60,589 nt of DNA from contig SIAA01000009.1 in NCBI GenBank assembly GCA_009692045.1, forward strand, positions 1 to 60,589, read 5' to 3'. A program made the translations under genes and the position numbers. The notes under the pieces are model-generated. The model was not told the origin of the DNA, searched no databases, and saw nothing but the letters and a program-made list of their open reading frames with translations. Of this stretch, positions 1 through 47,243 are shown piece after piece (within the stretch, counting starts at the first letter, position 1; each line of letters begins with the position of its first letter). The stretch is from Phycisphaerales bacterium (GTDB lineage: Bacteria; Planctomycetota; Phycisphaerae; Phycisphaerales; SM1A02).

Positions 1-243
1 GGGGATCCGATGGCACTTGCGCCAACATCGGTAGAGGGGGCTGCCGACTTGCTGCTAGGCACTCTCACTGGTCGCGTGCGCGGCTTGGCACGATCGATGT
101 TGATTCTCAACAGCGCGATGGCGTTAGTTGCTGCGGGGGCTGCGGGGTCAATGCGTGAGGGCGCAGACCTTGCCGCGCGATCGCTGGATTCTGGCGCTGC
201 TGCCAATACTCTGAATGACCTAGTGACCACATCGCGCGGCTGA
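1..243 (+). CDS. trpD: anthranilate phosphoribosyltransferase, C-terminal end (partial)
   Basis: The reading frame is open from the first base of the window and stops with TGA at 241-243, so only about 80 C-terminal residues are present. They match the end of TrpD: an ILNSAMALV helix where the family has ILNAAAAL, then a G-A-A-G-S-M-REG segment, then the A-x-x-LDSGAA-x-x-x-L closing helix typical of the nucleoside phosphoribosyltransferase III fold. TrpD transfers phosphoribose to anthranilate in tryptophan synthesis. The ATG at 10 is internal, not the start. The catalytic N-terminal part lies outside the window. Identification rests on the C-terminal signature only. Confidence 0.8.
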   Translation, partial: GDPMALAPTSVEGAADLLLGTLTGRVRGLARSMLILNSAMALVAAGAAGSMREGADLAARSLDSGAAANTLNDLVTTSRG

Positions 244-318
244 GTTGCTCGACTGGGTGAGGCCCGACCTTCCGACCTGATTCTGAGAGTGTTCGGTGAA
301 CCTTGCTAGAGTCCGCGA

Positions 319-2883
319 GTGAGTCGAAGAGGTCGCCCACCGGACACTGTTGGACGCGTCGGTGTCCTTCCGATTCTGTGTTTGGCATTCCTGCTGGGTT
401 GTGTACTGGGAGTTTGTCTTGTTGGTCACCGGGTTGGGATTGGTGTCGCTGCGGCTTTACTTTCTGGTGGCCTAGTCGCCGCCACCGCTGCCGCTGCGAG
501 GCGGTCCTCCCGGACCGAGGCGAGTTGTTACTTGTTTGTCGGTGCTCTTCTAGTTGGCGGGGGCTGGTCGCTCTGGCAGCTGGAGAGGGCGCAGGCCTCA
601 CGGATTGCTCTGGGTAGTCCTGATCGAAGACTCGCCTTTGTCACCGGGGTCGTTCGCTCGGCCTGTGTGCAAGGAGGACAGGACGGCGACCTCCTCGCGC
701 GCTACCTCCGAGAGTTTCCCTCCAAGCACTTCGATCTACTGGTAGATGAGAACCGCGACGGCGGTGGTGCAGTACTTTCTGGATTCGTACGAGTTCGACT
801 CTCGCTCGATGCTCCAGAACCAATCCCGGGCACAACTATTGGCGTCAAGGGATGGTTCCGTGCTCCGAGCGGCCCAAGAAACCCTGGCGGGTTTGATCAA
901 CTTCGCTGGTCGCTCGACTCGGCATACCTCGGTTCCTTGGACGCTGTAGACGGGGGAGTGGTCAACGAGTCGGTGCACAACAGCGATGGCGGTGGTTTAT
1001 CCTTTTTCATCAGATCGTCTCTGATTCGGTGGCGCGCCTCTGTCGCAAGATCCCTTGAGTCGGCTTTGCCGGACTGGGTAACTGGAAGAGCAAGGTCTCT
1101 TTGTTTAGGAATGGTTGTGGGACTTCGGTCGGAGTTTCTGCCTGTCGTTGCCGCCGATATGTCGGCCACCGGCTTGTCGCACCTTCTCGCCATTTCTGGA
1201 TTCAATCTCGCGGTTCTTGCTGCGAGTGTCTCGGGTTTGTGTCGACTTTGCCGCGTGGGGAGGGTGACCACTATGCTCTCGGTGGCCGCCACCAGCCTTC
1301 TGTTCTGGATCTCTGTTGATGCGGGTGTGAGCGCGGTTCGGGCTGCTGCCTGTGCCTTTGTAGGATCGATCGCGGTCGGGGCGGGAAGGCGCTGGAGCGC
1401 CGACTCCATTCTCGCACTTGCTGCACTTGCACTGTTGATCGAAGCCCCGTGGGTAGCAATCAACGCTGGCTTTCAACTCTCGTTTGTGGCGGTGCTCGCG
1501 CTCAGATACCTAGCCTCACCGATGGCACTGGCATTCAGTTCTTGGTTCGATCGAGTTGGTGCTGGGTGTGCCAAGGCGACGGTACGAGGATTCTCCGCGT
1601 GCGGAAGTTTCCTTAGCCCGTGGCTCGCGGCTGCTCTCTGCGCTTGGGCTGTGTCCACCCCTATCGTGCTCGCTCACTTCGGCACGATCTCACCAGCGGG
1701 CGCCCCACTCAGTGTTCTTCTTTCGCCACTGGCGGCGGTGATCGTGGCGGCTGGGAGTGCTTCCGCGGTGCTGGGCGCGATTTGGGGACCCCTCGCGGCA
1801 ATGACCGCATCTACGGCCGCGCTCGCATCAGTGCTTACCGACTGGGTTCTCGTGCAATCGCTATCGATGCCCTGGACAAGCATTCGGGTTGGTTGTGTTG
1901 GGGGCTGGTGGGGGACCGTTCTGCTTCTCTTGATGTGGGTCACGCTACGGAGTGCGCCTCGACATTGGAGGCGTGCCGCGGCGATGATGGTGCTATGGGT
2001 AGCTGCACTCACTCTCGTGATATGGAGCAACTCGCGAGGCGACTCCCCTCGGCTTCGAGTCACGGTTCTTGATGTTGGTAACGGCTCCTGCCTGATAGTT
2101 CAGGATGGTGGTTCGTGTGTCGTATTCGATGTGGGTAGTTCATCGTGCCGCTCATTGAGTTCATCTACCCTCCTTCCGGCTCTAATGCAGATGGGGATCG
2201 GCCACATTGATGCCTGTGTGGTGAGTCATCCCGATCTTGACCACTTCTTGGGACTCCCCGAGTTGCTTGATTCTGTGACTGTCTGTGAGCTGGTCACTAC
2301 CGAGAGGTTTTTGGCTGAAGCTGTGGCACTTCCAACCGGACCAGAGGCCGCCGCTATGACGCGGATTCGCGCTCGTGGCCTCCTTGTCTCTACCGTGTCT
2401 CGATCCTGTACTAGACGCTGGGGAAACTCGACCTGGACATTTCTGCACCCTACGGAGACCGCGCACAAACGCGCCAACGACGACAGCATCATGGTTCGCA
2501 TAGATCCAGAGGGTGGGGCTGGCGGCATTCTGTTATGTGGTGACTGTGCTCACGAAGCCATCCCTGAAGTGTTGGCGCTTCCTGCAGATTCACTCGGGGG
2601 GATCGCTGTCCTCGAGTTGCCACACCACGGCAGTTTCATTGAACAGTCTGTGGCTCTGCTCAACAGGGTGCGGCCGCGTTTCATACTTCAGTCAACGGGC
2701 GAATCAAGGCTGAGTCCAGACAGGTGGCTGGCACTCGGTGGCGAATCGGTTCGGCTGTGCACGGCTCGGCTTGGCGCTGTTCGTGTGGAACTGTCACCAG
2801 ATGGAGACTGGACCGCCTATCACTGGGATGGCGCTGTCTGGGTGGCTACTACTGCTTCAACATCAGAGCACGCTCAAGGATGA
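319..2883 (+). CDS. comEC: ComEC/Rec2-type DNA uptake channel
   Basis: This 854-residue integral membrane protein has the full ComEC layout: two N-terminal hydrophobic segments, a soluble DUF4131-like region (about residues 90-210), a central Competence domain with many membrane helices (about 240-560, including SATGLSHLLAISGFN), and a C-terminal metallo-beta-lactamase-like domain from about residue 580. That last domain keeps DVGNG, SHPDLDH and the late HHGS motif. ComEC carries single-stranded DNA through the inner membrane during natural transformation. The start is a GTG 75 bp after trpD. The 3' end overlaps the convergent gene downstream by 35 bp. No other competence gene is seen nearby. 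Confidence 0.93.
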   Translation: MSRRGRPPDTVGRVGVLPILCLAFLLGCVLGVCLVGHRVGIGVAAALLSGGLVAATAAAARRSSRTEASCYLFVGALLVGGGWSLWQLERAQASRIALGSPDRRLAFVTGVVRSACVQGGQDGDLLARYLREFPSKHFDLLVDENRDGGGAVLSGFVRVRLSLDAPEPIPGTTIGVKGWFRAPSGPRNPGGFDQLRWSLDSAYLGSLDAVDGGVVNESVHNSDGGGLSFFIRSSLIRWRASVARSLESALPDWVTGRARSLCLGMVVGLRSEFLPVVAADMSATGLSHLLAISGFNLAVLAASVSGLCRLCRVGRVTTMLSVAATSLLFWISVDAGVSAVRAAACAFVGSIAVGAGRRWSADSILALAALALLIEAPWVAINAGFQLSFVAVLALRYLASPMALAFSSWFDRVGAGCAKATVRGFSACGSFLSPWLAAALCAWAVSTPIVLAHFGTISPAGAPLSVLLSPLAAVIVAAGSASAVLGAIWGPLAAMTASTAALASVLTDWVLVQSLSMPWTSIRVGCVGGWWGTVLLLLMWVTLRSAPRHWRRAAAMMVLWVAALTLVIWSNSRGDSPRLRVTVLDVGNGSCLIVQDGGSCVVFDVGSSSCRSLSSSTLLPALMQMGIGHIDACVVSHPDLDHFLGLPELLDSVTVCELVTTERFLAEAVALPTGPEAAAMTRIRARGLLVSTVSRSCTRRWGNSTWTFLHPTETAHKRANDDSIMVRIDPEGGAGGILLCGDCAHEAIPEVLALPADSLGGIAVLELPHHGSFIEQSVALLNRVRPRFILQSTGESRLSPDRWLALGGESVRLCTARLGAVRVELSPDGDWTAYHWDGAVWVATTASTSEHAQG

Positions 2884-4027
2884 CCGTGTCACCGATGGGG
2901 CCATCCGATTCTTCTGTCAACTCCAGGCTCCATGGTCCACCATCGAGCACTACAAAGAGATCCGCCACCGAGTTGCCTGCATTGAGGAGGGCGCGAAACT
3001 TCACCCCGTGTGAGTCACGCACGACCAACTGTGTGTTGGTGTACTGGCTCAGATGATGGGGAATGGAGGCGCGGGCAATCAGCGCGACCGGGGTTTGTTT
3101 CTCTTGCTCGGACTGCGTTGGTTGATCTGGTTGACCCGAATAGGTGAAAGTGCCAGGCCCCAGAAACCTCACAGCTCTTGCATCAAGCGACGCGCCCGCG
3201 CTGTCGACCATGGGGGCCTGCAAACCCAGCCGTGGTGCTGTCGCGTCAGATGCATCGGTCACGATTGGATGGAGCGATGCCAACGGTGTGATTCGCCCGC
3301 CAGCCATACTCATGCCGACCACATCTTCGAAGTGGAATGTTCGCGATGGTGTCTGAGGACTCAAGCGAATCCCCGACACAAGAAATCCGTCCTGAACCGA
3401 CTCGGCACTTGCGGCATCAACGATGGTTCCGTCACCAAGCCACAGGCGGATAGCACCCTGAGGCCGCCTCTGACAAACGAACGAAATGGACTTCACGCGG
3501 TCGATGGGAATTGATAGTTCGCTGCCATCGGTGCGCTCGACCAAGAGTGGGTCGTCCAGCTTCGCCACCAGTCCCGCTACACGATCGCCGTTGGCCAACA
3601 CCACGATGTCGCTGGTATTGGTGGCTTCGACTCGGGCATCGCTGTGCAAGAGAAGCGCCGCCACCTCTCCCTCTAGAACCGGGATCATCCCTAGGTTCGG
3701 ATGCCGCCACACCGTGCGCCTCTCACTAGAGCGAATGCTGCCAGGAAGAACTTCGCCCGTTGTCAGCACCAGCGCGGCGGGAAAGGGATCGCTCATCGTG
3801 ACACCAACGGCGGTGATGGCCAGCGCCTTGGATAGTTCGCGGTTCCCTCCTTGAAGTAGTGGTCTGACTACTCCGCCGGGCTCGATTGTCGCCTCCACCC
3901 ATCCTTGCTCTTGATATAGGAGAGCGAACACCCTTTGTGTCTCCGCCCGCTGTGACACGGCACGTGGGGCGGTGAGCGCGAGTGCCAACGAACACACTGT
4001 CGCTGCTGTGGTGAAATGAAAGTTCAT
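2849..4027 (-). CDS. exported protein of unknown function, last gene of MoxR operon
   Basis: I do not recognise a named family over the full 392 residues. A signal peptide is visible at about residues 1-25 (short positive start, hydrophobic core, A-V-S-Q cleavage area). The middle is rich in beta-type sequence, with repeated short blocks such as NGDRVAGLV and LWLGDGTIVDA. The last 80 residues (PGTFTYSG, then GNSVADLFVVLDG) resemble a carbohydrate-binding NPCBM/NEW2-like beta-sandwich, but only weakly. The ATG overlaps the stop of the upstream toroid gene as ATGA, so it is the last cistron of the operon. Its 3' end overlaps comEC tail to tail by 35 bp. Confidence 0.75.
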   Translation of the reverse strand: MNFHFTTAATVCSLALALTAPRAVSQRAETQRVFALLYQEQGWVEATIEPGGVVRPLLQGGNRELSKALAITAVGVTMSDPFPAALVLTTGEVLPGSIRSSERRTVWRHPNLGMIPVLEGEVAALLLHSDARVEATNTSDIVVLANGDRVAGLVAKLDDPLLVERTDGSELSIPIDRVKSISFVCQRRPQGAIRLWLGDGTIVDAASAESVQDGFLVSGIRLSPQTPSRTFHFEDVVGMSMAGGRITPLASLHPIVTDASDATAPRLGLQAPMVDSAGASLDARAVRFLGPGTFTYSGQPDQPTQSEQEKQTPVALIARASIPHHLSQYTNTQLVVRDSHGVKFRALLNAGNSVADLFVVLDGGPWSLELTEESDGPIGDTVILERALMLKQ

Positions 4028-35011: not shown

Positions 35012-36355
35012 TCACGGCTTGGCTTGGCCCAGCCGCCGCTGCTTCTCGCGGTACTTGGACTCGAGTTCAGACTGGTGTGATGCCAGTTCAACACGCCTAC
35101 CATCTATGAACGCCTGCTCAGCGCGCGATCTGATCTCAAGCGGCTCACCGCTGGCCACCACTAGAGTGGCGCGCTTTCCGACCGCAAGCGTTCCCAGCTG
35201 ATCACCCACTCCGGCAATTCGCGCAGCATCGCGGGTGATGGCCGCCAGCGCGTCTTCACTAGGGAGCCCAAAGGCGACAGCCATGGCGGCGTGCTCAGGA
35301 AGCTTTCTCTCGTGCGCGGGTTCCTCTCCTGAGGCAATGCAAAACCTGACACCAGCCTGTTTGAGCCTTGCGGGAAGGGTGTACGCGGAGTCATAGGCAT
35401 CGTGGGCGTTCCGCGGAACGCGCAGCACCCCGCCAATTATCACGGGTATGTCGTGTTTCACCAGAAGTGAAGCACAAGCTTCGGCGCCGCCACCGCCAAA
35501 AATGACTGGTTTGAGACCGCGCCTGAGCGCCCACAGCACCGCCGACTCTATCTGTCCAGTGCTCGACGCTTCGATGAATACTGGGCGCGTGCCCTCAAGT
35601 TCTTCGATCATGCGCTCGTATCTCAGGTCACCCTGAGACTTATCGTGGGAGGCTGCGGTGCGCCACGCTTGCGCCGCCACAAAGAACTGATCGATCTTCA
35701 GCAGATCTTCCGCCGATTTACGTCGTTGCTCTTCGACGCTGGTTGTGGTCCAACTCTCTTGCGCCGCTTCGGTCGCGGGCCAGTGGATCACCAGGCCGGC
35801 ATTCCTCGAGATGCACAGGTCTTCGGTGGTCCACCCATCCATCCGCAGGACACTTGCATGACCACCCACAAGACCGGCGAGCGGGAAGGGCACACAGGTG
35901 AGTACCCCGGCAGCGCGAGCAACGGGTATGAGGTCACTGTCGGGGTTGACGGCAATCGAGGCAAACACCTCGGGGTGAAACTCACCGAACTCGGATCTGT
36001 CGTCGGTCGCCTCAACCATGAGGGTCTCTACAAGACCCACGCCCGCTCCCATTCCTATGAAACCAGGAAAGACATGCTTTCCCGTGGCATCGATTCGTTC
36101 GCATCCCTCGGGTACTACTGGCGTACCTGTTCCCACAGCGGTGATCAGGCCGCCGTCGAAGAGCACATAACCATCGGGCAGAACCGTGGCACCATCTTCC
36201 AGCGTGTGCACCCACGCGTGTTCGATGAGAATGGGACGAGTCTGGGCTACCGCCGGAACTAGAGTTGATTGAGAGAGCGCCGCCACCGTAGCGAAGAGTG
36301 GCGCGAGAGCAGCAGCAGTGATCGAAGTGGTACGTACATTCGTCAAGAGTCTCAT
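35012..36355 (-). CDS. exported amidohydrolase-family protein without metal ligands
   Basis: 447 residues. Signal peptide (about 1-35). The N-terminal small beta domain (ILIEHAWVHTLEDGATVLPDGYVLFDGGLITAVG) and C-terminal AVGKRATLVVASGEPLEIRSRAE are the amidohydrolase frame. At the metal site the usual HxH is replaced by FIGMGAGVGL, and no later His pair appears, so it is probably catalytically dead. It is the second gene of a pair: its ATG overlaps the stop of the 1078-residue double amidohydrolase as ATGA, which fixes the start. Likely a structural partner of that protein, or a glycan or peptide binding relic. Confidence 0.88.
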   Translation of the reverse strand: MRLLTNVRTTSITAAALAPLFATVAALSQSTLVPAVAQTRPILIEHAWVHTLEDGATVLPDGYVLFDGGLITAVGTGTPVVPEGCERIDATGKHVFPGFIGMGAGVGLVETLMVEATDDRSEFGEFHPEVFASIAVNPDSDLIPVARAAGVLTCVPFPLAGLVGGHASVLRMDGWTTEDLCISRNAGLVIHWPATEAAQESWTTTSVEEQRRKSAEDLLKIDQFFVAAQAWRTAASHDKSQGDLRYERMIEELEGTRPVFIEASSTGQIESAVLWALRRGLKPVIFGGGGAEACASLLVKHDIPVIIGGVLRVPRNAHDAYDSAYTLPARLKQAGVRFCIASGEEPAHERKLPEHAAMAVAFGLPSEDALAAITRDAARIAGVGDQLGTLAVGKRATLVVASGEPLEIRSRAEQAFIDGRRVELASHQSELESKYREKQRRLGQAKP

Positions 36356-39300
36356 CGGCTCACCTCTGAACATCCGCAATCACCCTGTCTGGAACTTGTT
36401 GGATCGATCCCTCGGCGCCACAAATCCAACATCGCCGCCTCCCGCTCGCCCAGCATTCGTTGCATCAGGCCGAGCCGGTCGCGACGACCTAACTCCGGAT
36501 TGCCTAGCCCTGAATCGGCAACAGCCAGAGCTGGTGTGACCGTCGCTGCCGCCGCATCCTTACGAAGTTTGTTCGCATCTGCCTCAATCTTTTCCTGCGC
36601 CACTGTCTGCACCGCGAAGGCGATCAACTGTTGGCGCAGTGCTGTGTCGCGCAGCCGCATCTTTGCATCCTCGAGGCGGTCGAAGTACTTGGTTCCATCG
36701 ATCCAGGTTTGTTCGCACACCGTGAATGACGAGAGTGGATCGCCAGACCAGATCACGAAATCTGCATCCTTGGATTGCTCGAGGCTGCCGGTGCGATGTC
36801 CTATTCCCATCTGGCGGGCAGGATTGATCGTTACAAACTCCAAAGCTGCCGCCGGGGAGATGCCACCATAACGCACCGCCTTCGCCGCCTCGGTATTCAT
36901 GTGCCGTGCCAGTTCGTCAGAGTCGCTGTTGAAGCTCACCAGAACCCCCGAGTCCGCCATAAGAGAACCGTTGTCGGGAATCGCATCCATGACCTCAGCC
37001 TTGTAGGCCCACCAATCGGAGAAGCTGGAGGCACCAGCGCCGTGGGCCGCGATCAGCTCCGCGACTTTGTAGCCCTCGAGAACATGTTGAAATGTGCCGA
37101 TCTTGAAACCGAGCTCCTCGGCGAGGCGGATCAACATGAGGATTTCATCCTGCCGGTACGAATGGCAGTGGACAATCCTCTCGCCGTTGAGGATCTGGGC
37201 AAGGGCCTCCAACTCCAAGTCTCGTTTGGGGGGAACAGTGCGCTCCCTCTCACCAAGTGGCAGCGCTTGGTAGGCCGCAAAATCGTGAGCTCGCTCCGCA
37301 GCCTCGCGAAACTGATCTCTCATGAATGACTCAACACCCATACGAGTATTGGGGTATCGCTTCTTGTTTCGCACCACATTTTCGCCAAGCGCGAACTTGA
37401 TTCCCGGCTTTGCGTCGGCGACGGGGAAGGCGTCGGCACCTGTTCCCCAGCGCAGTTTCACCACGCTGTTCTGACCACCCATCGGATTAGCGGATCCATG
37501 CAGTTGATTGGCCGCAGTGAGCCCACCAGCCAGTTCGCGGTACCAGGCGATGTCACCGGGATCGATCGCATCAGACATGCGAACCTCGGCGGTACAGGCC
37601 TGGGTACCCTCATTGACTCCGCCCTCGAGTCCGGTGTGGCTATGGCAATCGATGAGGCCGGGTGTGACATGTTTGCCAGATGCTTCGATGACAAACGCGT
37701 CCTTGGGAGCATCAAGAGTTGCGCCGATCGCCTGAATGCGCCCGTCCCGAACAATCATGCTGCAGTGTTCGAGGATGCCCGCCTTGCCGCTGGTCCAGAC
37801 GGTTGCATCATGGATGAAGACCGTCTGCTGAGCCGGTGGTACGAGAGCGCCAAAGTCACCAAAGGGATTAGTCAGCGGTATCGATGCGACATCGAACACA
37901 GCGATGGCTGGCGGAGGCGGAGGCGCGGGCACTGGTGCCGGTGCGGCATCGGCTGCTGCTGCTGGGGCCGGAGCTGGCGGCGGAACTGTTCCCGAAGCAA
38001 CCTCAATTGTCGAGAGTGATCCATCGTCCTTGTGACAGGTGACTGTAATGACAGCTCCGTCGCGCACCGCCGAGCAACGAAGGGTTCCGGTGCCGCCGAG
38101 CAGCGTTGCATCCAAAATGAAACTGGCGCGATCATCACCTATCGAGATGGATCGGGCGGCCGCCTCTGCCGCTTCGGGAGACTTGGGAAACACCAGCCTC
38201 GGAGTTTCAGGGTCGAACTCGACAGCCCGCTGTGACCCATCGGGCATCTTGGCAACGAGAGGTCCAGTGATCCCCAGGGGACTGCAGCGAATCACATCGC
38301 TGCGCCGACCGGCAACCCACACTTCGCGGATGCGGCATTCGCGCCCAAACAGCGGTCCGTCCACCACTACTAGGTTTGCCAGTTTCCCTGGTTCAACCGT
38401 GCCGAGAATGTCCTGCACACCGAGTAGACGAGCTGGAGCAACAGTGAGGGCAGTGAGCAGTGCGTCCTCATTGAGGCCGGCGGCGAGGGCTTTGCGTACG
38501 CGCTCGGGGAACTCGCTGCGCGATGTAAGCCGCGAAGATGTGATGCAGTAGTCGACGCCAGCTTGGGAGAGCAGCGCGCAGTTGCGGGAAGCGAGCGCCC
38601 AGGTGGCGAGCGCGCGAAGGGAGAGTCGATCCCCGTCGCGCGGGTCCGCCAGTTGTGGAACCTTGGGGAAGTTGAGGGGAACGATGAGGGGAATCTTGGC
38701 CGCCGCAATCTCGCGCAGCCTGCGGAACTCAGTCCCGCCTCCAAGAATGCAAGCGGGGATTTCAAACTCGCGGGCCACGGCGGCAGACCGCAGCGCCTCC
38801 AGTTCTGTTGGCGCATCGAAGAGCATCACATGAGCGGTCTGCAAGTCCTCGGCTAGCGCCTCCACAGCGAGGTTCATTACCGGCGCGTCATCATCAGTTG
38901 GATGCAGCTTCCATGCAGCGCGCGCTTCGGTCAGCCACTTGGAGTCGATGACGGTTTGCCTGACAAGCGCGACGGCGCCAGCCAGCGATCCTGGGTAAGT
39001 GGATGTGTCCCAATCGGTGTCGTGATTGAGGCTCACGGCCGAGGCGGCCGAGCGGCCGAGCGCCCGGACCTGTGAATCTGCGCTTCCGAGCAGCACAACT
39101 TCTCCCTTGCCGCGCAGGACTCCCCAGTCGGGGTACACCGCCGCCGCCGTGAATCCGATTGACCGCAACTCAGTTCTGGTGGCCCCGCTCAGAACAGGCA
39201 GTTCGCTCACATTCAGCTGGGGGATCACCTTGCGATTCCAGTGAGCGCCAGACTCCGCGGCAATGGTGCGCGCTGCCGATTCGCTGGAGATTCCTACATA

Positions 39301-39588
39301 GGCATCGATCAGACCCGGGTAGACCGTCTTACCGACGGCGTCGTGGCGGACCGCACCTTCAGGGGGAACGAGTCCAGCCCCAACGGCAATGATCCACCCA
39401 TCCTTCATGACGATGGTGGCGTTCTCGATAGTCTTGCCCGGGCGAACTATCAGTCGGGCGTGTTCGATGGCATCAAAGCGAACATCGGAGGGGCGCATCC
39501 CCACAGCGGGGGACTGAGCACTGGCGGTGGAGGCGGTCGCGGCGATCAGCGCTGTGGCGCATCCGGCAAGAACTCTGGGCGCTGGCAT
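36352..39588 (-). CDS. exported tandem amidohydrolase with one active-type domain
   Basis: 1078 residues. A signal peptide (about 1-24) is followed by two amidohydrolase (imidazolonepropionase-like) domains. Domain one (about 45-435) lacks metal ligands: LIDAYVGI at 93-100 takes the place of D-x-H-x-H. After a Pro/Ala spacer (about 535-560), domain two (about 590-1050) has H649-S-H651, His807, His809, His835 and Asp889 or Asp891, as an active zinc enzyme would. A GGAGG ribosome-binding site precedes ATG 39588; the frame extends to 39711, but only this start gives a signal peptide. It is followed by a further dead amidohydrolase gene. Substrate unknown, probably a cyclic amide or peptide derivative in the periplasm. 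Confidence 0.88.
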   Translation of the reverse strand: MPAPRVLAGCATALIAATASTASAQSPAVGMRPSDVRFDAIEHARLIVRPGKTIENATIVMKDGWIIAVGAGLVPPEGAVRHDAVGKTVYPGLIDAYVGISSESAARTIAAESGAHWNRKVIPQLNVSELPVLSGATRTELRSIGFTAAAVYPDWGVLRGKGEVVLLGSADSQVRALGRSAASAVSLNHDTDWDTSTYPGSLAGAVALVRQTVIDSKWLTEARAAWKLHPTDDDAPVMNLAVEALAEDLQTAHVMLFDAPTELEALRSAAVAREFEIPACILGGGTEFRRLREIAAAKIPLIVPLNFPKVPQLADPRDGDRLSLRALATWALASRNCALLSQAGVDYCITSSRLTSRSEFPERVRKALAAGLNEDALLTALTVAPARLLGVQDILGTVEPGKLANLVVVDGPLFGRECRIREVWVAGRRSDVIRCSPLGITGPLVAKMPDGSQRAVEFDPETPRLVFPKSPEAAEAAARSISIGDDRASFILDATLLGGTGTLRCSAVRDGAVITVTCHKDDGSLSTIEVASGTVPPPAPAPAAAADAAPAPVPAPPPPPAIAVFDVASIPLTNPFGDFGALVPPAQQTVFIHDATVWTSGKAGILEHCSMIVRDGRIQAIGATLDAPKDAFVIEASGKHVTPGLIDCHSHTGLEGGVNEGTQACTAEVRMSDAIDPGDIAWYRELAGGLTAANQLHGSANPMGGQNSVVKLRWGTGADAFPVADAKPGIKFALGENVVRNKKRYPNTRMGVESFMRDQFREAAERAHDFAAYQALPLGERERTVPPKRDLELEALAQILNGERIVHCHSYRQDEILMLIRLAEELGFKIGTFQHVLEGYKVAELIAAHGAGASSFSDWWAYKAEVMDAIPDNGSLMADSGVLVSFNSDSDELARHMNTEAAKAVRYGGISPAAALEFVTINPARQMGIGHRTGSLEQSKDADFVIWSGDPLSSFTVCEQTWIDGTKYFDRLEDAKMRLRDTALRQQLIAFAVQTVAQEKIEADANKLRKDAAAATVTPALAVADSGLGNPELGRRDRLGLMQRMLGEREAAMLDLWRRGIDPTSSRQGDCGCSEVSR

Positions 39589-39732
39589 GGTGGACCTCCA
39601 AGAAACACCAGCATAGCCAATATCAAGCAAAACCAGAGGGTTATTAGTCTGATAGAGGCCACTCATGGTTAACAGCCCACGGTTCCCCCTTACCCACGCC
39701 CCACAGCACAACAGCGTCCAGTGCGCCGGGCA

Positions 39733-43450: not shown

Positions 43451-44041
43451 GTGACCGAGTCGAATCCAACCCTGAAATATCCAGAAGACGCGCCGCCGGT
43501 CTGCGCCGATCAACCACTTGCAGCGCGCGTGGAAGCAGTGTTGTTCGCCAGCGATCGACCCATCTCCGATGGTCGAATAGTCGACTTGCTGGGGATTGGG
43601 GCCGAGGGGGGCGTCTCGCCCAATGCCCAGATCCGCGCGGCAGTAAACGACTTGAATGCCCAGTACGAATCAGGTGGGCGGGCCTACCGCATCGAGAGCG
43701 TGGCAGGTGGACGGCAGGTGCTGACCCTCAGCATGTTTGCGCCACTGGTGGAGCGACTGCGGGGCGCTCGCGCCCAACAAAGACTCTCTCAGGCAGCATT
43801 GGAAACCCTGGCAATCATCGCCTACCGCCAGCCCATACTGCGAGCCGATGCCGAGTCGATTCGCGGCGTCGCCTGCGGCGAAGTTATGCGAAGTTTGATG
43901 GAGCGCCGACTAGTTCGGATTGTTGGTCGGGCCGAAGTTCTCGGTCGACCCATGCTGTATGGCACCACCAGCGAGTTCCTCAAGGTATTCGGCATGGGTT
44001 CGATCGCCGATCTTCCGGCCTCGGGAATCTCCAAGTCGTAA
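43451..44041 (+). CDS. scpB: segregation and condensation protein B
   Basis: 196 residues made of two winged-helix domains, with ARVEAVLFASDRPIS at the start and the LSQAALETLAIIAYRQPILRADAESIRGV motif that is diagnostic of ScpB. It forms the kleisin complex with SMC and ScpA, neither of which is in this window. It lies 10 bp downstream of atpC, and a strong hairpin 18 bp beyond the stop ends the transcript. Confidence 0.93.
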   Translation: MTESNPTLKYPEDAPPVCADQPLAARVEAVLFASDRPISDGRIVDLLGIGAEGGVSPNAQIRAAVNDLNAQYESGGRAYRIESVAGGRQVLTLSMFAPLVERLRGARAQQRLSQAALETLAIIAYRQPILRADAESIRGVACGEVMRSLMERRLVRIVGRAEVLGRPMLYGTTSEFLKVFGMGSIADLPASGISKS

Positions 44042-44059
44042 GTTTGTGTGCCGAAAAAA

Positions 44060-44092
44060 ACTCAATGGCCGCAACTTGTGCGGCCATCGAGT
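44060..44092. terminator. bidirectional intrinsic terminator
   Basis: A hairpin with a 13-pair stem (one mismatch, perfect 8-bp core ATGGCCGC/GCGGCCAT) and a 7-nt loop. Leftward it is followed by seven Ts (complement of AAAAAAA at 44054-44060), a strong terminator for the minus-strand PEP-CTERM gene. Rightward it has CTTTG and also serves scpB. Confidence 0.8.
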
Positions 44093-44156
44093 CTTTGTGG
44101 GGGGTATTGTTTAGGCCGGAGCGCTAAGGAAAAGCAACAAGCGCCCATAGCCTGAG

Positions 44157-45437
44157 TCAGAGTCGACGTCGACGAAGTCCAACGACACCGCAGAAAAGAA
44201 GCGCCAATCCTCCAGGGGCGGGGATGGGCTGAGCTACAAACGAAGTGCTGAAACTCACGGTGTCACCGGCAGAAATACGGAATGAGAGGTTCAATCGACT
44301 CTCGGCACCAATCGCGGGGCCAGGAGCGGAAGGACCAGGTAACCCGAACGACATCGGGGTTATGGACGCACTGCCGAACGGTCCGGCCTGTAGTCCGGGC
44401 CAGTTCGTGCCAAGATTCCAGGTGTTGGCACCAATCGCGGCCGACCAGAGGCTGGTATTCGCAGCATCCCCGATCAGCGCCATTTGTCCACCATCACCAT
44501 TCGCAGAGAAAGTTCCGGCAACCGAGCCGCCAACCACTGTCTGCATGGAGCCAGAAAGGGTGGGAAGCCGAAGTATCAGGGAAATCAACTGTGTCTCAGT
44601 TGAGGAGTTGGTGTAGATGAGACTGCCGCCCATGAGCGCGCGCCCCGCCTGTGCCACATCGGTGCCGATGAGGCTGAAGATCAGCGAGTGGTCCGCCGAA
44701 AGACTGGAGTTGCCGTTGTACTGGAAAATACCTAGCGCCTGAGTGGCGGTCCCAGTGGGAGCAATGGCGGTTGCGACCCCGTTGACATCCAAGTTGATGG
44801 TCAGTGCGGGGCCATCAGCAGTAGCCGTGCCACCCAGTGCGAGTGCCCCAACTACCGACGCGGCAACCGCACCGGTTCGCCGTCGCCGACGACCAGTAAA
44901 CAGGCCTGAGGCCGCAGCCACAGCCAGCGCACCAGGAGCAGGAACAGGCTGCATCACGAGATTGCTGTTGAAACTTGCGGAATCACCGGACGAAAGAAGG
45001 AAACGAAGCACGATTTGGAAGTTGTTGTTCACGGGGCCCACCGAAAGTGAGGGGACAGGTGCGCCGAAACTCACAGGGCCAAACGACCCAGCCATAAACG
45101 GATCTGTCGAGAGTGAGAAGGGCGCGGTCAGTAAAGAAGCAACGCTTTGGCCGTCGACAAGTGCGGTGTAAATCGCCGCCCCGGGTACAGCTGTTAGAAA
45201 CGATCCGGTTCCATCCAGATCCACGAGACTCCCCGAGATGGTTCCGCCAGCGAGACAGTCCCCCATGGGCGAAGTTAGGTCACGGGTAAAGGTGACCGAG
45301 TACTCCTGTGTGGAGGCTGAGTCGTTGTAAACGGTGTACTTCCCGGTAAGGATGTCAGCCGAGGCGTATGAGCCGGCCACTGTGGCGGCTAGTACAGCCA
45401 GCAGTCCTTTTCCTCTATTGGCAATAACAAAAGCCAC
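44157..45437 (-). CDS. fused double PEP-CTERM exported protein
   Basis: 426 residues made of two related units. Unit one has a signal peptide (about 1-27), a beta-rich domain ending SSGDSASFNSNL, then a complete sorting tail: P-V-P-A-P-G at about 165-169, a hydrophobic stretch and RRRRR at about 183-187. Immediately after it a second signal-peptide-like stretch (TGAVAASVVGALALGGTATA) starts unit two, which ends with S-A-G-D-T-V-S-F-S-T-S-F, PIPAPG, a hydrophobic stretch and RRRRL at the end. GTG start with an AAGGAG site. This looks like a fusion of tandem genes whose end and start have merged. The exosortase that would process it is not in the window. Confidence 0.8.
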   Translation of the reverse strand: MAFVIANRGKGLLAVLAATVAGSYASADILTGKYTVYNDSASTQEYSVTFTRDLTSPMGDCLAGGTISGSLVDLDGTGSFLTAVPGAAIYTALVDGQSVASLLTAPFSLSTDPFMAGSFGPVSFGAPVPSLSVGPVNNNFQIVLRFLLSSGDSASFNSNLVMQPVPAPGALAVAAASGLFTGRRRRRTGAVAASVVGALALGGTATADGPALTINLDVNGVATAIAPTGTATQALGIFQYNGNSSLSADHSLIFSLIGTDVAQAGRALMGGSLIYTNSSTETQLISLILRLPTLSGSMQTVVGGSVAGTFSANGDGGQMALIGDAANTSLWSAAIGANTWNLGTNWPGLQAGPFGSASITPMSFGLPGPSAPGPAIGAESRLNLSFRISAGDTVSFSTSFVAQPIPAPGGLALLFCGVVGLRRRRL

Positions 45438-45500
45438 AAGACTCTCCTTAGCAAAGGTCTGGCTTCGCCCTTTTCCCTAAGGCGTTGCCCAAAACAAGTT
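45438..45500 (-). promoter_or_regulatory. structured leader of the PEP-CTERM gene
   Basis: Read on the minus strand, a hairpin with a CGCC/GGCG core (about 45461-45484) is followed by CCTT-TGCT-AAGG (about 45448-45460), which pairs half of the AAGGAG ribosome-binding site. This could gate translation. It does not match a c-di-GMP riboswitch closely enough for me to name it. Confidence 0.3.
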
Positions 45501-45643
45501 GTCAGTAGCCAGCGCGGCTATCGATGTAGTGACTCTAGCTCATGTTTTCTATAAGCCAAGGTTTTTCAGCGGTATTCAGCGACATTTTGCGGGGCACAGC
45601 GCTAGCGGCGCAAGTTGGCTCCAGCGCCACTGATTATTGACGC

Positions 45644-46657
45644 TCATCTATCGATCAAATCGACACCCGAGGCCTCAGCTTCGACTCGTTCCAGCAGCGC
45701 CGCCCTCATGGCATTCGTATCGGTGGCTAGTCGAATGCTTTCTTTCAGGGACTTCACATGAAGCATCGACTTGCCATACCAACTGATTCGCTTGCGCATG
45801 GTGTCTACGGCGTGATGCTCGTCGCTGTAGCGATTCAGCAGATCGAGGTGGCGCAGAATCACTCGCAACTTCTCCAACAGAGTTGGCTCGGCACCCGCGT
45901 CGCCGGATCGGATCACGCGGAGTGCTCTGCGAAACAACCATGGTTCGCGCAGAGCGGCGCGGCCGATCATCACCCCAGAGCATCCTGTTGAACTCATCAA
46001 CTCGGCCGCGTGCTCCGGCAGTGTCACATCACCGTTTCCAATTACGGGGATCTTGTCGACAGCCGCCACCACCTCGCCGATTGCGTTCCAATCTGCCTTG
46101 CCAGAGAACAGTTGCACGGTGTATCTGCCATGAACCGTGACCGCCGCAATCCCCACCCTCTCCAGCGCTCGAGCCAGAGCCGGTGCGACCCGATGCTCCG
46201 CATCCCAGCCGATGCGCAGTTTCGCGGTCACCGGCACTCGATTGCCGCTGTGACGACTCACGGCATCAACGATGCCCGCCGCAAGTCGAACGGTTGAGTC
46301 GATGTCACAGAGAAGCAGCGAGCCGCCGTGTTTCTTGGCCACCTTGTCAACGGGGCAACCCATGTTGATGTCGATGAGCGATGCGCCGTGGTCGATGGCC
46401 CATACAGCGGCCTCAGGGAGCGGGTCGTTGGCATTGCCATACAGTTGCATGCCACAGGGCTGGTCCAGACCGTTGGTAGCGGCTAGCTCGAGGGTGCGCC
46501 TCGACTGACGCAGCACTGCGTGGCAGTTGAGCAGATCTGTGCAAGCGAGACCGACTCCACCCTGCTCACGGCAGAGGATGCGAAATGCCAGATCGCAGTG
46601 GCCCGCGATGGGAGCGAGCAGGAGGGGCGAGGCAAGTTCAAGAGGTCCGATTCGCAC
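45644..46657 (-). CDS. dus: tRNA-dihydrouridine synthase
   Basis: About 337 residues: FMN-dependent TIM barrel with [13 protein letters not shown], the catalytic-loop [20 protein letters not shown] whose Cys is the proton donor, HGR in [16 protein letters not shown], and the phosphate-binding IGNGDV and GVMIGRAAL. The C-terminal helical domain follows. Dus reduces specific uridines of tRNA. The ORF continues upstream through the overlapping exonuclease, but the natural start is the GTG at 46657 (V-R-I-G-P), a 20-bp overlap with the previous gene. It is the last gene of the long minus-strand run. Confidence 0.93.
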
Positions 46658-47243
46658 TCGACCTCGCGTCTTCCAGCAACAGATGCCACATATACGGTTT
46701 TCCCGACTTTGGATGGGTGCGCTGAAGCAGTTCGGCCAAAGCTTCAACATCTCCGGTGGCACGGTGTGCGGCACCAGGATCTATGGTGTGAGCCTTCAGA
46801 AGCGTTTGCATCTGGGCGTTGGGGAACCCCAGTGACTTCCAGGGGATGCGCTTGCAGGAGCACCGCCATTTGAGCGCCTTGATCCAATGAAAGTGACGCG
46901 AGAGCATGCCGCGGTCGAAGTCACAGTTGTGGGCAACGACAAATGCGGCACTCTCAAGAAGAGTGCGCACTCGGCGCTCGTCGAACTTCTTTCCTCGAAC
47001 ATCGTCGAAGGAGATGCCGTGAACGTACTGCGCGCCCGGATCGATCGTGCCCTTCGGCTCCTGCAATCCGTGATAGGTGGCCCTGATGCGCCTGACGCGC
47101 GCCGTCAGTTCATCACACTCCAGCAGAACAATGGCCAGTTCAATAACCTCGGCACTAGCCGACATGCCGGTGGTTTCGGTGTCGAGAATCGCAACAAGCA
47201 GCGATGGCCCCTCATCGTCGGTCTGCTCGAACAACCCACTCAT
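46638..47243 (-). CDS. DnaQ-like 3'-5' exonuclease
   Basis: 201 residues of the DEDDh fold: ExoI LDTETTG, ExoII region [12 protein letters not shown] and Exo[17 protein letters not shown], so all acidic metal ligands and the catalytic His are visible. It resembles the epsilon proofreading or RNase T families, but no polymerase partner is adjacent. ATG 47243 overlaps the stop of the esterase gene as ATGA, giving this start rather than 47315. Confidence 0.88.

Follow-up and report, generated by a model that had tools for sequence, protein, structure and literature searches.

An in-frame fusion of two PEP-CTERM-type genes with an internal sorting tail followed by a signal-peptide-like stretch in a Phycisphaerales bacterium

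The fused gene and its parts

The window, by which is meant the whole 60,589-nucleotide stretch of Phycisphaerales DNA that was analysed (contig SIAA01000009.1), carries on its reverse strand an open reading frame of 426 aa with a GTG start at 45437 and a stop at 44157. A check of this frame found no internal stop, in keeping with the original prediction that two units are fused here and that the first of them ends in a P-V-P-A-P-G tail and RRRRR, with a signal-peptide-like stretch immediately after. The features of the locus are listed below, a slash marking a predicted cleavage site.

45644-46774, reverse strand: dus (tRNA-dihydrouridine synthase), conserved upstream neighbour (PF01207, 8e-73; synteny)
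44157-45437, reverse strand: fused two-unit PEP-CTERM-type gene, GTG start preceded by a good ribosome-binding site with GGAG (Shine-Dalgarno energy -8.2 at the start)
45357-45437, reverse strand: signal peptide 1, residues 1-27, ending AGSYASA/D, called by rules from its n, h and AxA regions
44955-45356, reverse strand: unit 1, predicted exported beta-rich domain, residues 28-161, 61% identical to its counterpart in a second fused genome (G001) and clustering with the first genes of unfused pairs
44877-44954, reverse strand: internal sorting tail, residues 162-187, made up of VPAPGALA, a hydrophobic core and RRRRR, 239 residues before the protein end
44817-44876, reverse strand: internal signal-peptide-like stretch, residues 188-207, predicted cut ATA/DG, with the A/DGP site at which second genes of unfused pairs end their N-terminal signal peptides
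44232-44816, reverse strand: unit 2, predicted exported beta-rich domain, residues 208-402 (homology to unit 1, tree, all-beta AlphaFold2 model)
44160-44231, reverse strand: terminal sorting tail, residues 403-426, made up of IPAPG, a hydrophobic core and RRRRL, sequence QPIPAPGGLALLFCGVVGLRRRRL, recognised from the sequence
43451-44041, forward strand: scpB, conserved convergent neighbour (PF04079, 1e-47; synteny)

The internal tail reads VPAPGALAVAAASGLFTG-RRRRR over residues 165-187 (QPVPAPGALAVAAASGLFTGRRRRR with its flank, residues 163-187) and is followed directly after RRRRR by TGAVAASVVGALALGGTATA/DGP (residues 188-210), unit 2 beginning at D208 as DGPALTINLDVNG. The arginine cluster of the internal tail is thus also the n-region of the internal signal-peptide-like stretch. 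The relatedness that had been noticed between the two ends extends to the units themselves, as unit 1 can be aligned to unit 2 and the two are homologous, and 29 columns are invariant when all four units, two from each fused protein, are compared. A Pfam search with the fused protein yielded no domain and a sequence search of the PDB no match, and the NCBIfam matches were weak, involved chiefly the tails and fell on the C-terminal ends of PEP-CTERM family models. AlphaFold2 gave a poor model of the full protein (pLDDT 41) and a low-confidence all-beta model of unit 2 alone (pLDDT 59), the fold matches of which reached TM-scores of about 0.4 at most and were disregarded.

Unfused relatives and the reality of the junction

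Homologues were found in 102 of the 181 family genomes searched, and in most of the loci examined the gene order is dus - unit 1 - unit 2 - scpB, with scpB convergent. These separate tandem pairs share with the fused gene orthologous units, order and neighbours, but in them each unit is a gene of its own, complete with start, signal peptide and stop. In all 24 pairs that were read in detail the first gene stops a few residues at most past its arginine cluster; the start and signal peptide of the second lie mostly tens to a few hundred bases downstream. The suggestion that a tandem pair had fused is therefore borne out by unfused pairs in relatives of the family. The stop and start at the junction that had been held up as a possible objection do occur in every other genus examined, where they are read as the ancestral state, but the two genomes compared within the genus itself both have the fused gene.

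The fused unit 1 groups with the first genes in a tree of 61 units (SH-aLRT 89 for the branch that unites them), the fused unit 2 lies near the second genes and outside the first-gene group, and the gene-order labels require 5 changes compared with 22 in shuffles. This placement, unit 1 with first genes and unit 2 with second genes, shows a single fusion of old neighbours: the unit duplication is old, and the long-standing neighbours were fused once, in or before the ancestor of the genus. The junction itself resembles what is found in the unfused relatives, as the second genes of G092, G093, G193 and G195 have 27-residue signal peptides ending A/DGP; that of G093 reads MLRNRLRGFIATAACALAAGATMTATA/DGPTV, and at the corresponding place the fused proteins have RRRRRTGAVAASVVGALALGGTATA/DGPAL and RRRRRRTSLTAAGLTTLGLAAAAPA/DGPPV. 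The second signal peptide has retained its hydrophobic part and cut site at the junction and has lost its start codon and n-region, with the arginines of the tail standing in the place of the latter. Additional fusions that seemed to be present in G092, G186, G190 and G182 (open frames 462-572) proved to be adjacent genes in the same frame that had been read through by the search, each with a stop.

The order dus - unit 1 - unit 2 - scpB (window 43451-46774 and loci L070-L098) has been kept across many genera despite fast divergence of the units, and this conserved pairing beside dus and scpB suggests that units 1 and 2 work together. At one locus, L086 (G057:C66, positions 1-3194), there are four tandem units, forming two first/second pairs, ahead of scpB, and the pair itself has therefore been duplicated in G057.

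The fusion is known from two genomes of the genus, both of them drafts, and in the second, G001, which is 55% complete, the locus occupies a 3.1-kb contig (SYPI01000083.1, labelled Planctomycetia). This contig carries a stop-free fused ORF of 436 residues with 54-55% protein identity to that of the window and with dus adjoining. At four-fold degenerate sites the two genes are different at 64% of positions, compared with approximately 71% at saturation, and the F81 distance is approximately 1.6 changes per site. As both genomes are drafts, the open junction could in principle be an artefact of sequencing or assembly, or reflect a stop codon lost only lately in a gene that is decaying, but the same junction is present in two genomes that are near synonymous saturation, and the intergenic stretch is absent from both, so that the probability of this explanation is negligible. 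An error common to both assemblies is thereby excluded in practice, as is a stop codon lost recently, and the assembly error at the junction against which the original prediction had warned is contradicted by the identical arrangement in so divergent a genome.

Profile searches for other such junctions in two overlapping sets, one of 400 order genomes and one of 392 phylum genomes, with the 18 top candidates of each genome scored and G001 absent among the genomes listed, revealed no second complete stop-free junction. Many of the matches were ordinary tails with a stop right past the arginines, and two that were considered as further junctions, in G083 and in a protein on contig C60 of the source genome, have 11-13 extra residues but are without a second unit. 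The C60 protein (L132, G000:C60), which contains VPAPGVLALAVAGAMAAGRRR, has an unusual extension of 13 residues past its arginine cluster (PYTTRLAGSFSST). A search of the literature found no paper on internal PEP-CTERM tails.

The internal signals and their conservation

The fused protein has much in common with substrates of the PEP-CTERM/exosortase (EpsH) system, namely a signal peptide, an exported domain of low homology, V-P-x-P-G, a short hydrophobic helix, an arginine cluster and an exosortase in the genome, but it differs in that one tail is internal, with another signal peptide and another cargo after it, and in that the motif is PAP and not PEP, as it is in the other tails of the source genome. 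An N-terminal signal peptide is present (residues 1-27) and both tails have the tripartite structure of P-x-P motif, hydrophobic helix and basic cluster. On the TIGR02595 model, for which the cut-off is 16 bits, the internal tail falls below at 12.6 bits and the terminal tail is not among the listed matches; other proteins of the source genome score 16.2-19.3 bits. The terminal tail lies at the extreme C-terminus, whereas the internal tail has 239 residues after it. It has been reported that 87% of PEP-CTERM tails have fewer than 10 further residues to the C-terminus and it was proposed in the same founding paper that internal tails are probably non-functional (PMC1569441); the tail described here is internal and yet conserved. 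Because it departs from the standard in two features, position and TIGR02595 score, the internal tail is PEP-CTERM-like in its working and not a standard member. The source genome encodes signal peptidase I and a single exosortase, on contig C31 (PF09721, 160.9 bits; TIGR02602, 125.9 bits against a cut-off of 105.55), which is flanked by EpsI-like and polysaccharide-export-like genes, and a search-based census found at least eight other proteins in this genome with VPAPG...RRR(R) tails that end 0-13 residues past the arginines.

Comparison of the window with G001 gives an indication of which parts of the junction have been maintained. VPAPGALA of the internal tail is identical at 8 of 8 positions and the hydrophobic core after it at 2 of 10, all five arginines of the internal cluster have been kept and so has the A-x-A/DGP site of the second signal, the internal h-region and signal peptidase site (residues 183-207, A205 and A207 at -3 and -1, R5 ahead) being present in both genomes. 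Overall identity is 58% for the internal tail against 54% for the terminal tail and 37% for each of the two signal peptides. A neutral simulation of the junction over the same distance, which is a rough yardstick as it was started from the window sequence rather than from a reconstructed ancestor, retained PAPG, R5, both stretches free of polar and charged residues, acceptable -3/-1 residues and an open frame in 0 of 200,000 runs, and the stretches, frame and -3/-1 residues alone in 0.02%. The internal elements are close to the real tails and signal peptides of relatives in hydropathy, core length (12-13) and -3/-1 residues, with the internal tail at the low end of the hydropathy range of the relatives' tails and its core somewhat less hydrophobic than that of the terminal tail of the same protein. 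The arrangement is confirmed as real, conserved and unusual, and the fact that two distant species have kept both signals undamaged suggests a single bacterial polyprotein, which would be cut into two surface proteins.

These data also bear on other ways in which the junction could be read. The main rival is a single two-domain surface protein whose internal helices would remain in the inner membrane as an uncleaved hairpin, with the domains still joined. Such a protein would likewise preserve hydrophobicity and arginines, but VPAPGALA, invariant next to a helix that has kept 2 of 10 residues, would serve no purpose in a plain hairpin, nor would an A-x-A/DGP site derived from real signal peptides, and we consider this reading unlikely. 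Processing might also be half complete: signal peptidase acting alone would set unit 2 free and keep unit 1 anchored by two helices, whereas exosortase acting alone would set unit 1 free and keep unit 2 on the second helix. Exosortases are known to act on C-terminal tails (PMC1569441), which is in favour of partial cutting, but both motifs are well conserved and this reading is less probable still. It is very improbable that translation begins anew within the first tail to give unit 2 by itself, at GTG173 in the window and GTG191 in G001: either codon would yield a signal peptide preceded by arginines, but the two are at non-matching positions, their Shine-Dalgarno energies (-5.1 and -5.6) do not stand out in this sequence, the true starts having -8.2 and -10.8, and read-through of the frame would happen in any case.

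A possible route to two surface proteins

The reading that is supported by the foregoing, and which on the strength of sequence comparison seems somewhat more probable than its rivals taken together, is that of a genuine gene fusion encoding a two-protein precursor, from which signal peptidase and exosortase would produce two surface proteins. The common ancestor of the genus lost the stop codon that closed the first gene, the sequence between the genes, and the start codon and n-region with which the second gene began, so that the arginine cluster at the end of the first tail now doubles as the positively charged n-region of the second signal. By the positive-inside rule this cluster would be cytoplasmic; the tail helix would then run inward and the second signal helix outward, with unit 1 outside, RRRRR inside, unit 2 outside, the last tail running inward again and the junction forming a hairpin. 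Such a topology would place each proteolytic signal on the outer face, where its enzyme expects it. Signal peptidase I would cut after A207 and exosortase at both PAPG sites, a hairpin of approximately 40 residues would be discarded, and these cuts would give two surface proteins in a 1:1 ratio from one message, the equal ratio being the presumed benefit; we infer both the topology and the cutting at internal sites. The original prediction envisaged two anchored proteins, which is not quite right: with the tail removed by exosortase, these helices would no longer hold the products, which would instead be set free or reach the surface by sorting. Whether the whole scheme applies, that is a conserved polyprotein in which one arginine cluster does two jobs, exosortase acts on a non-terminal substrate and each chain yields two surface proteins, is in our judgement evenly balanced.

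There are partial parallels in other systems. FbcH of Bradyrhizobium is a precursor of cytochrome b and cytochrome c1 that is thought to be split by signal peptidase at an internal signal sequence. It resembles the fused protein in being a bacterial precursor in which an internal signal peptide leads to two proteins, but it is without a C-terminal sorting tail, an exosortase or a shared arginine cluster and its products are subunits of an enzyme complex. Viral membrane polyproteins such as the envelope precursors of flaviviruses and bunyaviruses also have alternating stop-transfer and internal signal sequences and are cut by signal peptidase, but they are viral, belong to the eukaryotic ER and are without sortase-type tail processing.

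PEP-CTERM tails have so far been regarded as tags of the C-terminus, and those found internally as likely relics, and an internal tail that is intact across very divergent species offers a test of whether exosortase needs a free C-terminus. A natural export polyprotein in a bacterium would be useful for studying how a signal peptide that re-starts export is read straight after a stop-transfer helix, and the fused gene for asking how gene pairs turn into single genes.

Two minor features of the window were noted by eye. A long inverted repeat (ACTCAATGGCCGCAACTTGTGCGGCCATCGAGT) at 44060-44115, between the convergent scpB and the fused gene and absent from the terminator scan, is probably a shared terminator of the two genes. 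An ORF of 1119 residues at 36352-39711 on the reverse strand appears to have two amidohydrolase domains and a proline/alanine-rich linker, and is possibly another fusion.
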